This document shows positions 33,717 through 60,700 of a stretch of DNA of 64,000 bases, in pieces. Origin of the DNA: Engraulis encrasicolus (Eukaryota; Chordata; Actinopteri; Clupeiformes; Engraulidae); assembly GCF_034702125.1 (NCBI RefSeq), contig NC_085862.1, forward strand, positions 8,969,863-9,033,862, read 5' to 3'. A program made the position numbers and the translations under genes. The stretch's first letter is position 1. Each line of letters begins with the position of its first letter. The notes beneath the pieces are model-generated. The model saw only the letters and a list, made by a program, of their open reading frames with translations, did no database searches and was not told where the DNA came from.

Positions 33717-36700
33717 GTATTGCCCCCAAACCTTAAATCTAGATATTATTTGACATTTTTATCAATACTTATAGCTATGTGTGTGTAGCCCGCCTGGGGA
33801 GTGTTTGCACCTGAAGTTGTTGCGGAAACAAATGAGTTTTGTGATGCTAATTTTGCTTCACTGGTTATTACAGCAGCATCAGCAGTGCCTATTACAGATC
33901 TCAGTCGTATGGTTCATATCATCGATACGGAGCATCCATGGGACGTGACCTCCATCAACTCCGGTCACTCAGAGGTGATCAGTTGCCTGGAGTGGGACCA
34001 GTCTGGTAAGTGGAGCAGCAGCACATTCCCTTGTGTAGTCAATTAACTGTCAGAAACTCTCCATGTCATTTCAATCAATTAATGTGTCAAAGTTTTCAAG
34101 TCCACAAGATAGACATTAGGCCTAGAGTACATTACATTACATTTAGCAGACGCTTTTGACCAAAGCGATTTACAAGTCCAGAGTGTGGGGACAGACATTC
34201 AAGCAAGTGCAGAGTGTGGGGTCAGCACGTTACATCAGTACTATACAGTAATGTAGAAGAGATGGTAGGAAAATAGTGGAGGACCTATTAAGTGTAGTAC
34301 AGGTTAGTAGGCCTACCCATCATAAGAGATGGGTAGATGCATGGAAGCTCTCTCGGAAGAGAGACCTTGTAGAACATGCATAATTGCACAGACATCGCGT
34401 CTACCATGTTCAGAACAGTCTTTAGGAGTCTTTGCAAACATGTACAAACTTAAAGCTTTCGCTCAAAAATCACTTCGCTTCACAAGTTTAGTACGAGGAT
34501 GGGATAAGGAGTTTTACATGCGACTCATTATCATATAATTGACTTTGATCCATATGGGATGGTAAATGGGAATCATTAATGCGCTATTGCTCAAGGAGCA
34601 CGTGTGAATGAATGAATGAGTGGTTGGATGATTGCTAAGGTGTAGGTTTGGCTTCTAAGGTATGCATTTTTTTCATTATGGTTGTGAAAAAAGAGGTGGC
34701 GTCAAGCTAGGTTTATCTGAAAAGTGGTATGGACATGCCCCCACCATCCCTACCTAAAATTACACCCATGCATGATTGGATGGCTGGATGAATGATTAAT
34801 TGATTAATTAATTGATTGATTGATTGATTGATTGATTGATTGATTGATTGATTGCTTGAATGTAAGTATGAAACGTGTTGTGTTGCCACCATGTGATCCT
34901 CAGGGTCTCGGCTGCTGTCGGCGGACGGCGACGGGCAGATTAAGTGCTGGGCCATGACGGAGCACCTGGTGAACAGCTGGGAGTGCACACACACCAGCAA
35001 CATGGACCGGGACCCCATCGTCGCCCTCTCCTGGCTGCACAACGGAGTCAAGCTGGCCCTCCATGTGGAGAAGGTGGGTGCAGGACACACACACACACGG
35101 GTCAAAGACGTCCAAAAAGGAACTGTCATTCAGTGTAACAGATACCTTCAGTAAAAAAAAAACATGATTTTTAAATTGTTTCAAGTGAATGGATGACAGC
35201 CGAGGCTTTCATGAATTCACTGGAAAAAAATAAAATAAAAAGAGTCATGTTTCTTACAGTTACAGTCAGCAGAAGGTATTCGTTTCGCTTGTTCTTTTAT
35301 TTTCTCACCAAGTGAACGTTTTCCAGCTACACACTATTCATCATCAGACTCAAGAGCTCAGAGTCAAAAGATCATTCAGACTCCACACACACACACACAC
35401 ACGCATGTATGTGATGATGTATAATTCTCTGTCTCTTTGGATGCAGTTAACCCTATCCAGACCGGGCTTTTTTGGCATTCCTCGGACCGGGGGGGGCTCT
35501 TTTGATTTTATTGCCCAACATGTCACCTTAATGTATTTTCCATCTAACTTGGGTAATGCACATCAATTTTGGTTATTATGTGCATCAGACCACTTCAAAT
35601 GTTCACAAGCGTGTCTGATGCTAATGGAAATGTAAAAAATATGAAAAGTGATGATGATGAGACTTAGATCAGTGATTTTTGGTCAGGCGTACCTGACAGA
35701 AAACCGTTGCCATGGCAACAACAAAAAATGATAAACCTAATCTTGCTCCCATTTGTGAGTGGAGTCTGAATGCTCTTTTGACTCTGAGCTCTTGAGTCTG
35801 ATGATGAAGAGTGTGTAGCTGGAAAACGTTCACTTGGTGAAAAAATAAAAGAACAAGTGAAACGGGGCATTCAAATTTGTTTTCATGATTATCTGACCCT
35901 TTTGTCCCGCACCTCTACCTTACTTGACAGGATATATAATATAAGTATCATGCAATGTGTAAAGTAGAATGCAATGCGGATACCACCTTTTTCTCTACCA
36001 AACTAAAAACTAATTGAAGACGCGCAAGAAAGACGTAAACTTGCTATTCCATTCCTTTGATCTTTCACACATTTATAGGGTGTTTTATGTTCCTCTTGAC
36101 AAAAACAACATTCCAGTACATCCACAAAGTAGCAGTAATGTATCTGTTAACCTGCTCTGTGTGTTTCTTTCTTTCTTTCTTTCTTTCTTTCTTTCTTTCT
36201 TTCTTTCTTTCTTTCTTTCTTTCTTTCTTTCTCTCTTTCTCTCTTTCTCTCTTTCTTTCTCTCTTTCTTGGCTCTCCTCCTCCCCATCCCCATTGCCATT
36301 GCAGTCTGGCTCCACCAACTTCGGTGAGAAGTTCTCCCGTGTGAAGTTCTCCCCGTCGCTGACCCTGTTCGGGGGGAAGCCGATGGAGGGTTGGCTGGCG
36401 GTGACGGTGAGCGGGCTGGTGACGGTGTCTCTGCTGAAGCCCAATGGCGCCCTGCTCAACGCCAGCGAGACCCTGTGCCGGCTGCGGGGCCGCGTGGCGC
36501 TGGCGGACATCGCCTTCACCGGCGGCGGGAACATCGTGGTGGCGGCCACGGACGGTAGCAGCTCCTCACCCGTGCAGTTCTACAAGGTGAGGACGAGTCT
36601 TATTATTATTATTATGGTGTTGTTATTATTATTATTATTGTTATTGTTATTGTTATTGTTATTATTATTATGATCGTGGTGGCAGCCACCGACTGCAGCA

Positions 36701-57700: not shown

Positions 57701-60700
57701 CTAAAAATCTTACACAGTGTACCTTTTAAAGACTTGGTATTAGGTTGGATATTGTAGTTACTGCCAATTTGACATAGTTATATCTCTAAAATGAGACACA
57801 TTTCACAAGTCTTTTTCACAAGATGAATGTGAAGATACCATTTATAACTTTCTGTAAATAAATGCTCTAAAATGCAATATTTTCATTTGAAATTCTGAGG
57901 AAATGTTGACAATAGTTTATGTTCATTTACTGAAACACGTGCCTATAAATAGTACATTTTGATACATTTTGAGGTTGTCTCTCAATTTTCGCCACGGCTG
58001 TACTTGTTCTGAACAAAACAGCAAAAGACAACCAGCACCTATAGAAGCTGTGCATGTATATATGAACTTTTGCAAGTGTGAATGTAACTTGTCCTGTCTG
58101 TCCCTCACTGCTCCAGACATAGATAAGGTGATGATCAACCTGAAGACGGAGGAGTTTGTTCTGGACGGGCCTCCTCTGCAGTCCCTTCAGCAGCTCATCC
58201 AGTGGGTCGGGGACTTCGTACTCTACCTGATGGCAAACCTACCCAACCAGGTAAGAGAACACGCACAGGTACACACACACACGCATGATAGGAGTTCAGA
58301 TTCCACACACACAGAGAGACTCTTAATAGCCTTCTCTTGTCCCGTGGTGCATACTGCAGTGGCAAGTCCCGGGTTCGGGTTCCTGCATGACGGCTCGTCG
58401 TTGGGCATGTTGCGGGAGATGGCGCATAACACACACCACACACACACACACACACACACACACACACACACACACACACACACACACACACACACACTCT
58501 AAATAGTCTTCTCTTCTCCCGTACTTTAGGGTTCGGTGGTGTGTCCCGGGTTCGGGTTCCTGCGTGACGGCTCGTCGCTGGGCATGCTGCGGGAGATGAT
58601 GGTGATGATCCGGATCTGGGGGCTGCTGAAGCCCGGCTGTCTCCCCTCCTACACCGCCACCTCCGACAACCAAGACAGCATGTCCCTCCTCTTCAGACTC
58701 CTCACCAAGCTCTGGCTCTGCTGTAAGGACACACACACACCTCTCACACACACACACACACACACACACACACACACACACACACACACACACACACACA
58801 CGCCTCACACATCTCTGATCATCTCATCCTGGGAGCGGTGGTGGCTTAGGCGGTAGAGGTGGTTGAGCAAGATACTTAATCCTAAATTGCTCCTGGTGGC
58901 AGGGTGGTGCCCTTTGTGGTAGCCACTGCCACCGGTGTGTGAATGGGTGAATGTGAGGCATACAATGTAAAGCGCTTTGAATGCACAAAGGAGTAGAAAA
59001 GCGTTATATTAATGCAGTCCATTTACCATTTCCCATTTCCCCTCCCTCCATCCTGGGACGAGGGTCATCCCTAGGAGCCAGACAAGTCTTAAATGTCAAG
59101 TGCTCTGCTAACACTTCTCCATCTGTGTGTGTGTGTGCGTGTCCGTGTGTGCGCGCGTGTGTGTGTGTGTCCCTCCCTCCAGCCCGTGACGAGGGTCATC
59201 CTCAGGAGCCTGACGAGTCCCTGATAGATGAGTGTTGCCTGCTGCCCAGTCAGCTGCTGGTGCCCTCCATGGACTGGCTGCCCGTCAACGATGGCGTCAT
59301 CACCAAGATGCAGAACAAGCAGGCGCTCAGGCTGCAGTTTGGCAAACCCTACACGCTGCCCAGCCTCAACGCCAACACACAGGTGGACATCTTCTCCAGG
59401 TGAGATTTAGTAGACAACATAAAATGTAGTATTTGTACACGCTGCCCAGCCCAGTGGTGTAGTCTAAGTAGAATGCAGGTATACGCAGTATACCCACTTC
59501 AAAATGTCAGGGATTTCAGTATACCCACTTAAAATTGATTGATCCATTATTTAGAATAGCACAAATATATACAGTATACCCACCTCAAAAATTGCTCAAA
59601 TATACAGTATACCCACTACAAAAAAGTAGACTATACCACTGGCCCAGCCTCAACGCCAACACACAGTCGACATCTTCTCCAGGTGGGTCTCTTGGTATGA
59701 CATCACATTTAGCAGGCGCTTTTAAAGGGGCTCCAGGCAGGATTAAAAGTTTAATTAATCACTGTCCCGAGACAGAATCATTAGTAAGTGAACGATGGCT
59801 CTCGCGACCACTTCCATGGTCCGCTGTCAGAAAACCCAGAATGCAACTTTTTGACAGAGAGGTCTGAAGGAGTATCATGGGTAACACTTTTCATACGAAA
59901 AACTGCTTTACACACCGTATTCAGATTTGTATCAACTGCTGGCATTCCGCGATGAAAAACATTCTCACAGCGAGTTTATTTGAACAGCATTTTTTAATTG
60001 TGATTTTGAGACGGGCACCGCGCAAACGTCATCCTACCTTTTGCCCCTTGTAGGGGTAATCCCACATTTATTGGACGTGAGGAATATTCTTCCTCACGCA
60101 AGGGCACCAAAATATGTAGGGGTAATCCCACATTTATTGGACGTGAGGAATATTCTTCCTCACGCAAGGGCACCAAAATATGTAGGTAAAACTACATTTA
60201 TTGGATACGGGGACTATTCTTCCTCACACACGGGCACCAAAATATGTAGGGTCAACTACAATTAATGGGTACGACGTTAAATGTAAGGGAAGTACAGTGA
60301 TGTAATTATAATTACATTAATAAGTATACAATTCTTATACGGTTCCAAATATGTAATGTGTTATTACTATATGTGAGGAATAAGAGTATAAGAAATGATG
60401 CATGAAGAGTGTGTTAAACTCTTCACGTTGGGTATCAATAATGTGTAGGTGTGTACTTATGGAATCGTCAATTGTCTAATTAATGATTGCATAAAACACG
60501 GTTCATGACCGTCTCATAAAATCATGACCATTATTGACAAATAATCTGAAGGTTTTGTGTGAATTCTTTTCTGGTTGACTTCGTAGAAATTGTTCAAATA
60601 AGACAAACACAGTTCACCACAATGTACATTTATTGTAAAAGCATCATCCGGTCATAACACTGATACAGCCAATGTGACTTGCAGGGCATAAGAACTTAGG

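Follow-up and report, generated by a model that had tools for sequence, protein, structure and literature searches.

Why should the edges of so many exons of one gene recur, as extra copies, in the introns beside them? This question is raised by med16 in a stretch of 64,000 nucleotides from Engraulis encrasicolus (assembly GCF_034702125.1, contig NC_085862.1, positions 8,969,863 to 9,033,862 of the forward strand), the whole of which we call the window and in whose own numbering all positions below are given. A first-pass annotation of this DNA reported that segments spanning the splice junction are present in additional copies at nine exon borders of the gene. We found exactly the same nine junctions, and we consider it probable that the copies are 'mirages', short local duplications that span exon-intron junctions and that would have arisen independently at each junction.

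Exons 1 to 14 of med16 were mapped at 33578-62678 from the reading frame and the splice signals. The exon borders were first guessed from what is known of MED16 and were then confirmed by the frame and by alignment to a PDB chain. The mapped exons comprise 2,378 base pairs (bp) without a stop; the 14 donors all have GT and the 13 acceptors all have AG. The MED16 product of 792 residues, with its frame intact, can be aligned from end to end with a MED16 chain of the PDB (1399 bits). In the best such chain, which belongs to a solved Mediator structure and which we take to be mammalian, 597 of the 792 residues are identical (75%), a level of identity that points to a vertebrate. The last exon is probably beyond the window end, and the 27 junctions within the window form the survey set.

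These junctions were scanned for same-strand repeats within 3.5 kb, of at least 30 bits, with 6 bp or more on either side of the junction. We observed copies at eight of the 27, namely the donors of exons 4, 7, 8, 9 and 10 and the acceptors of exons 10, 12 and 13. Self-comparison of the window, in which the copies are also seen, and the family listing add the donor of exon 13 as a ninth junction, with a copy of about 42 exonic and only 3 intronic bases. Local same-strand copies are thus present at 9/27 junctions, and donors and acceptors do not differ significantly (6/14 versus 3/13, p = 0.42). At the remaining 18 junctions no same-strand copy of at least 30 bits was found within 3.5 kb; these include all junctions of exons 1, 2, 3, 5, 6 and 11, as first reported, and those of exon 14. 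All edge copies found are on the same strand and within about 2 kb of the real edge. Furthermore, at 32 bits or more the 64-kb window has no exon repeat that is inverted or more than 3.5 kb distant, and exon-internal repeats are limited to two fragments of the exon 4 family. Copy-bearing junctions tend toward longer introns (p = 0.07; 26 junctions with a known intron).

The statistics of the copies rest on 33 aligned copies. Their exonic part is 8-69 bp long and a whole exon is never copied, in agreement with the first-pass annotation, and 775/843 exonic and 598/672 intronic bases are identical to the real edge. Most copies hold exon plus intron across the junction, as had been described for all of them, the exceptions including two of the five exon 4 pieces, which are exon-only. 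Each affected junction has one to ten copies, the copied segments or units are 33-118 bp long (the exon 4 unit size is unclear), and each family spans a single junction only. Of the donor copies that extend to the junction, 24 of 26 retain GT, and of the acceptor copies three of five retain AG; the statement that many copies keep these signals holds, apart from the exon 13 acceptor copy, in which AG is lost, and two exon 8 copies that have lost GT. In eight of the nine families the best piece and the real edge share 82-97% identity, and at exon 7 the identity is 100%, so the duplication events look to be of different ages. Identity is lower, 70-80%, in longer gapped alignments that extend into microsatellites or through arrays.

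A tandem arrangement, though not found at every junction, is evident at exon 8 with a 33-bp unit, at exon 9 with a 73-bp unit and at the acceptor and donor of exon 10, and the exon 9 family and both exon 10 families are contiguous tandem repeats. Microsatellites, which had been described as adjacent to the copies, are clearly next to the junction at the donors of exons 4 and 10 and the acceptors of exons 12 and 13, and so at only some of the nine. By codon position, mismatches amount to 23/281, 11/282 and 34/280, a skew that fits a real exon diverging at synonymous sites, with the reservation that copies within an array are not independent. When nine units were folded, none did clearly better than its own shuffles (z from −1.49 to 1.32), which gives no indication of hairpins, and RNA families gave no match in the window at gathering scores. 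Breakpoint microhomology, judged by eye, consists of ATAT shared at the exon 10 donor, with little or none at the donors of exons 7, 9 and 13.

The individual families, all on the plus strand, are arranged as follows. At the exon 4 donor (exon 36305-36586, real edge 36533-36600), five pieces lie at 36673-37112 between ATT microsatellites; those at 36673-36717 and 37019-37057 are the exon-only ones, and those at about 36802-36842, 36928-36960 and 37083-37112 have GT. The exon 7 donor (real edge 38393-38450, exon end 38429) is copied 192 bp downstream at 38585-38642 with 58/58 bases identical (37 exonic and 21 intronic), and the copy is set off by an unrelated 134-bp spacer, of which self-comparison found no second copy. 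The real edge of the exon 8 donor (exon end 39727) and its first copy (39742-39782) occupy 39705-39782, and further copies with a 33-bp unit lie within 40121-41418 (40121-40216, 40660-40703 and 41296-41418). Six of the eight exon 8 copies have GT and two lack it, and the copies are separated by other sequence, including an interspersed repeat. At the exon 9 donor (exon end 41840), the real edge at 41808-41883 is the first unit of a 73-bp array (tandem alignment at a shift of 73 over 553 columns), and ten more units, all of which retain GT, follow at 41884-43880, with seven in 41884-42426, one at 43509-43559 and two in 43720-43880. This array is broken by about 1.07 kb of unrelated sequence at 42433-43500, probably an insert.

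The exon 10 acceptor (real edge 52546-52604, exon start 52575) is preceded by three copies at 52385-52545 that all keep AG, with a tandem alignment at a shift of 107 over 113 columns. The donor of the same exon (real edge 52761-52807, exon end 52785) is followed at 52860-53358 by three copies that begin at about 52860, 52945 and 53312, all with GT and in the company of TAA microsatellites, with a tandem alignment at a shift of 95 over 164 columns. The exon 12 acceptor (real edge 58481-58598, exon start 58530) has a copy of 49 intronic and 69 exonic bp at 58304-58421, in which AG is present but shifted by a few bases, and the exon 13 acceptor (real edge 59171-59219, exon start 59183) has the copy without AG at 59040-59088. 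Finally, the exon 13 donor (real edge 59358-59402, exon end 59399) has a copy at 59436-59685 that keeps GT and is split by an interspersed repeat (59451-59595 matched, with flanks). The interspersed repeats in the exon 8 and exon 13 donor families and the probable insert in the exon 9 array suggest that those duplications are probably older. The repeat at 59451-59595 also recurs, inverted and 93% identical, upstream of the gene at 30089-30232.

The first-pass annotation knew of no repeat class that seeds at so many junctions of one gene, but such structures have been described. Minisatellite-like duplications of intron-exon boundaries were named 'mirages' in the Adh3 and globin genes of amphioxus (PMC3087553), and lancelet PGBD5 and troponin C are further cases (PMC3902484). 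The amphioxus mirages are given lengths of 10-72 and 150-160 bp, affect both exon edges and have been put forward as the raw material of new introns (PMC3087553). In common with the amphioxus structures, the med16 copies are local same-strand repeats across the junction, have unit lengths from tens of bp up to about 160 bp, involve 5' and 3' edges and in many cases keep GT or AG. The unit spans the exon-intron junction at 9/27 junctions, a minisatellite-like tandem arrangement with a unit within about 10-160 bp is present at exons 8, 9 and 10, and six donors and three acceptors are involved; the med16 units of 33-118 bp and the involvement of both edges thus fit the published mirages.

Under the mirage explanation, each event would set, close to the original and in the same orientation, a second copy of an exon edge with its flanking intron. 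A duplication confined to an exon would break the protein and be lost; one that spans a junction would be tolerated, with the outermost junction (the first donor or the last acceptor) still serving and the rest becoming intron. Such an event would be harmless only with the outermost junction in use, which would leave the copies within introns. The units would then have multiplied in the manner of a minisatellite, chiefly at the donors of exons 8 and 9 and to a lesser extent at other junctions, and other sequence would later have landed within some arrays. We infer slippage or unequal exchange as the process, continued use of the outermost sites, and a lack of function; tolerance would account for the position of the copies and for their exon-plus-intron content with no function being invoked.

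The copies are in excess at the junctions of this gene. Counting local direct-repeat families of at least 50 bits within 2.5 kb, we found 18 in the window and 16 in the gene, of which nine each span one junction; at 40 bits there are 21 families, 18 of them in the gene, and the identical nine at junctions. When one interval for each of the 16 families was placed at random within the gene, the mean number of junction-spanning families was 1.47 and the maximum 8, and nine was reached in 0 of 20,000 trials. Additionally, local duplication covers 265 of 5,030 sampled complex non-exonic points of the window (5%), edge families excluded, in comparison with 9/27 junctions, or 8/27 under the 6-bp rule. 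An equal density of copies away from exon borders, which the first-pass annotation had itself named as evidence that would tell against it, is therefore not what we observe, with the reservation that a cruder count, discussed below, narrows the difference.

Among the alternatives, the one that survives best concerns this excess only and is compatible with mirages: duplication would be uniform and neutral, and pairs anchored in an exon would simply stay recognisable for longer. In simulations, 81% of junction-spanning pairs versus 28% of intron pairs of 75 bp were detected at K = 0.15, and 69% versus 38% of 50-bp pairs at K = 0.10, several med16 copies being near 50 bp. With a detection factor of 2, the expected number of junction families is 4.0/16 for an intron target of 13 kb and 5.2/16 for one of 9 kb; young repeats would shrink the old intron target, and interspersed or self-complementary repeats recognised within the window make up at least 3,911 of the 26,723 intron bases. 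However, young pairs are detected nearly alike at K = 0.10 (99% versus 87% at 75 bp, 100% versus 99% at 110 bp), and several med16 copies are as young as these simulated pairs. The probability of at least 9/16, assuming 80-bp segments, was computed for 12 pairings of an intron target with a detection factor, and it ranged from 5e-7 to 0.042 with 1.2 to 5.2 junction families expected, being below 0.008 in 11 of the 12 combinations and 0.042 in the extreme one. Moreover, of ten intron-only matches within 200 bp of a junction, nine come from the edge families and the tenth from an interspersed repeat. Better visibility next to constrained exons accounts for no more than part of the excess, and as a full explanation we find it doubtful.

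Several observations weigh against the excess or against the mirage explanation in its simplest form. The cruder count places 12-15% of intron points in local duplications versus 7-8 of the 27 junctions, although it lets arrays seeded at exon edges inflate the background. The gene was picked for looking odd, a selection that the tests leave uncorrected and that speaks for the detection account. Were duplication uniform and random, only about 1-5 of the 16 families would be expected at junctions, so neutrality in its simplest version fails to account for the junction bias, and tolerance alone leaves the excess over intron-only duplications unaccounted for. Furthermore, the exon 7 copy is identical over its 58 bp yet lies 192 bp away behind an unrepeated spacer, so plain tandem duplication is insufficient there without later deletion or insertion; the exon 13 donor copy likewise has a spacer, and both of these donors have a single copy.

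A bolder extension of the mirage explanation, which we put forward tentatively, is that junctions in this vertebrate lineage are hotspots of local duplication, through a process that recognises a feature of the junction. Chromatin, transcription-coupled breaks or structures linked to splicing would be candidates for such a feature, mirages would occur genome-wide, and the spliceosome would repeatedly face up to eleven near-equal donors for a single exon.

Selection could instead have kept the copies, for example as extra U1-binding donors that steer splicing or protect long introns. In keeping with this, GT is intact in nearly all donor copies, and by a simple count of matches to the donor consensus 21 of 27 donor decoys equal or exceed the real donor. 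However, a per-base identity of about 0.9 alone predicts about 21/26 intact GTs (hand calculation), the acceptor copies keep AG in only three cases of five, the copies are of mixed age and some are split, and use of the decoys would truncate the protein. All 32 decoy sites tested, which include one doubtful exon 7 site and three sites without GT or AG, would add an in-frame stop if used, the real copy being the frame-keeping one, and the decoys are thus probably silent. We therefore regard selection as very unlikely. The suggestion that decoys could alter splicing is possible but not indicated, and amphioxus globin mirages seem harmless to regular splicing (PMC3087553). With 21 of 27 decoys as good as the real donor, the proximal site would have to win by position or exon signals. 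At exon 9, nine of the ten downstream donor copies equal or better the real donor's match to the consensus, and these ten GT copies offer a natural experiment on nearest-donor choice.

An assembly artefact, in which haplotypes or repeat units were falsely joined in tandem, might be suspected from the exon 7 copy, identical over 58 bp, and from the richness of the window in microsatellites. In the other eight families, however, even the best piece has diverged by 3-18% from the real edge, short of the near-identity of a false tandem duplication, interspersed repeats divide the exon 8 and exon 13 donor families, unrelated sequence breaks up the exon 9 array, and even at exon 7 the spacer is unrepeated. 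Identities of 82-97% and the split families make assembly error unlikely for most copies, and as a general explanation it is highly improbable. Base composition fares no better, with GC-rich exon edges as the duplication-prone sequence: the exons have 48-68% GC and 2-kb blocks of the window 36-50%, but only 12 of 358 non-exonic points with GC of at least 0.55 fall in local duplications and junctions with and without copies do not differ significantly in GC (0.50 versus 0.53, p = 0.59), and we reject it as a cause. A transposable element as carrier is likewise rejected, in line with the first-pass annotation, the families being private to their own junctions and centred on them; at 32 bits or more, the rest of the window contains no copy of exon sequence.

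What is new is the vertebrate host and the nine junctions in one gene, the kind of repeat itself being known from lancelets. Compared with the amphioxus mirages, med16 is a vertebrate gene with 9/27 junctions affected, and some of its families are diverged and split by other sequence. Among the literature matches listed, judged by their titles and the openings of their abstracts, no vertebrate gene with several mirages appeared, and the term 'mirage' was used for these structures in amphioxus papers only; papers may word the matter differently, and absence is unproven. Human genes in segmental duplications have internal tandem repeats at exon-intron boundaries (PMC2812944), and thus share minisatellite expansion at vertebrate exon-intron boundaries with med16. 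In those recent paralogs the repeat number varies between paralogs and alters gene structure, whereas med16 keeps its frame and has repeats at many junctions of a single gene. Local duplication also yields extra splice signals when an intron is gained through tandem genomic duplication of an AGGT-containing exon segment (PMC3443670). That process makes a new intron inside an exon, whereas in med16 junctions that already existed appear to have been copied into introns that already existed, and the protein is intact. With nine mirages in one vertebrate gene, their rate, mechanism and effects on splicing would become testable.

Other repeats and frames lie in the same window. Minisatellite families away from exon borders are present at 25070-26936 and 60049-60273, with units of about 118-124 bp and 64-66 bp, and an intron 9 family at 46805-47658, with a unit of about 146 bp in 47305-47658, is one of the seven in-gene families that are not at junctions. 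A long palindromic element lies in a med16 intron at 45316-46421, with 88% self-complementarity over 1.1 kb; a related copy at 53694-54753, again in a med16 intron, is broken up by other sequence. Inside intron 9, the minus strand at 47765-49327 holds an uninterrupted frame of 520 amino acids with Ig domains (Pfam Ig_3, V-set), possibly a retrocopy, and a 136-bp copy of its 5' part is found at 49980-50115 with 97% identity. Upstream of med16, a frame at 27313-27702 matches DUF4616 over residues 24-79 with 35 bits (Pfam cut-off 27).

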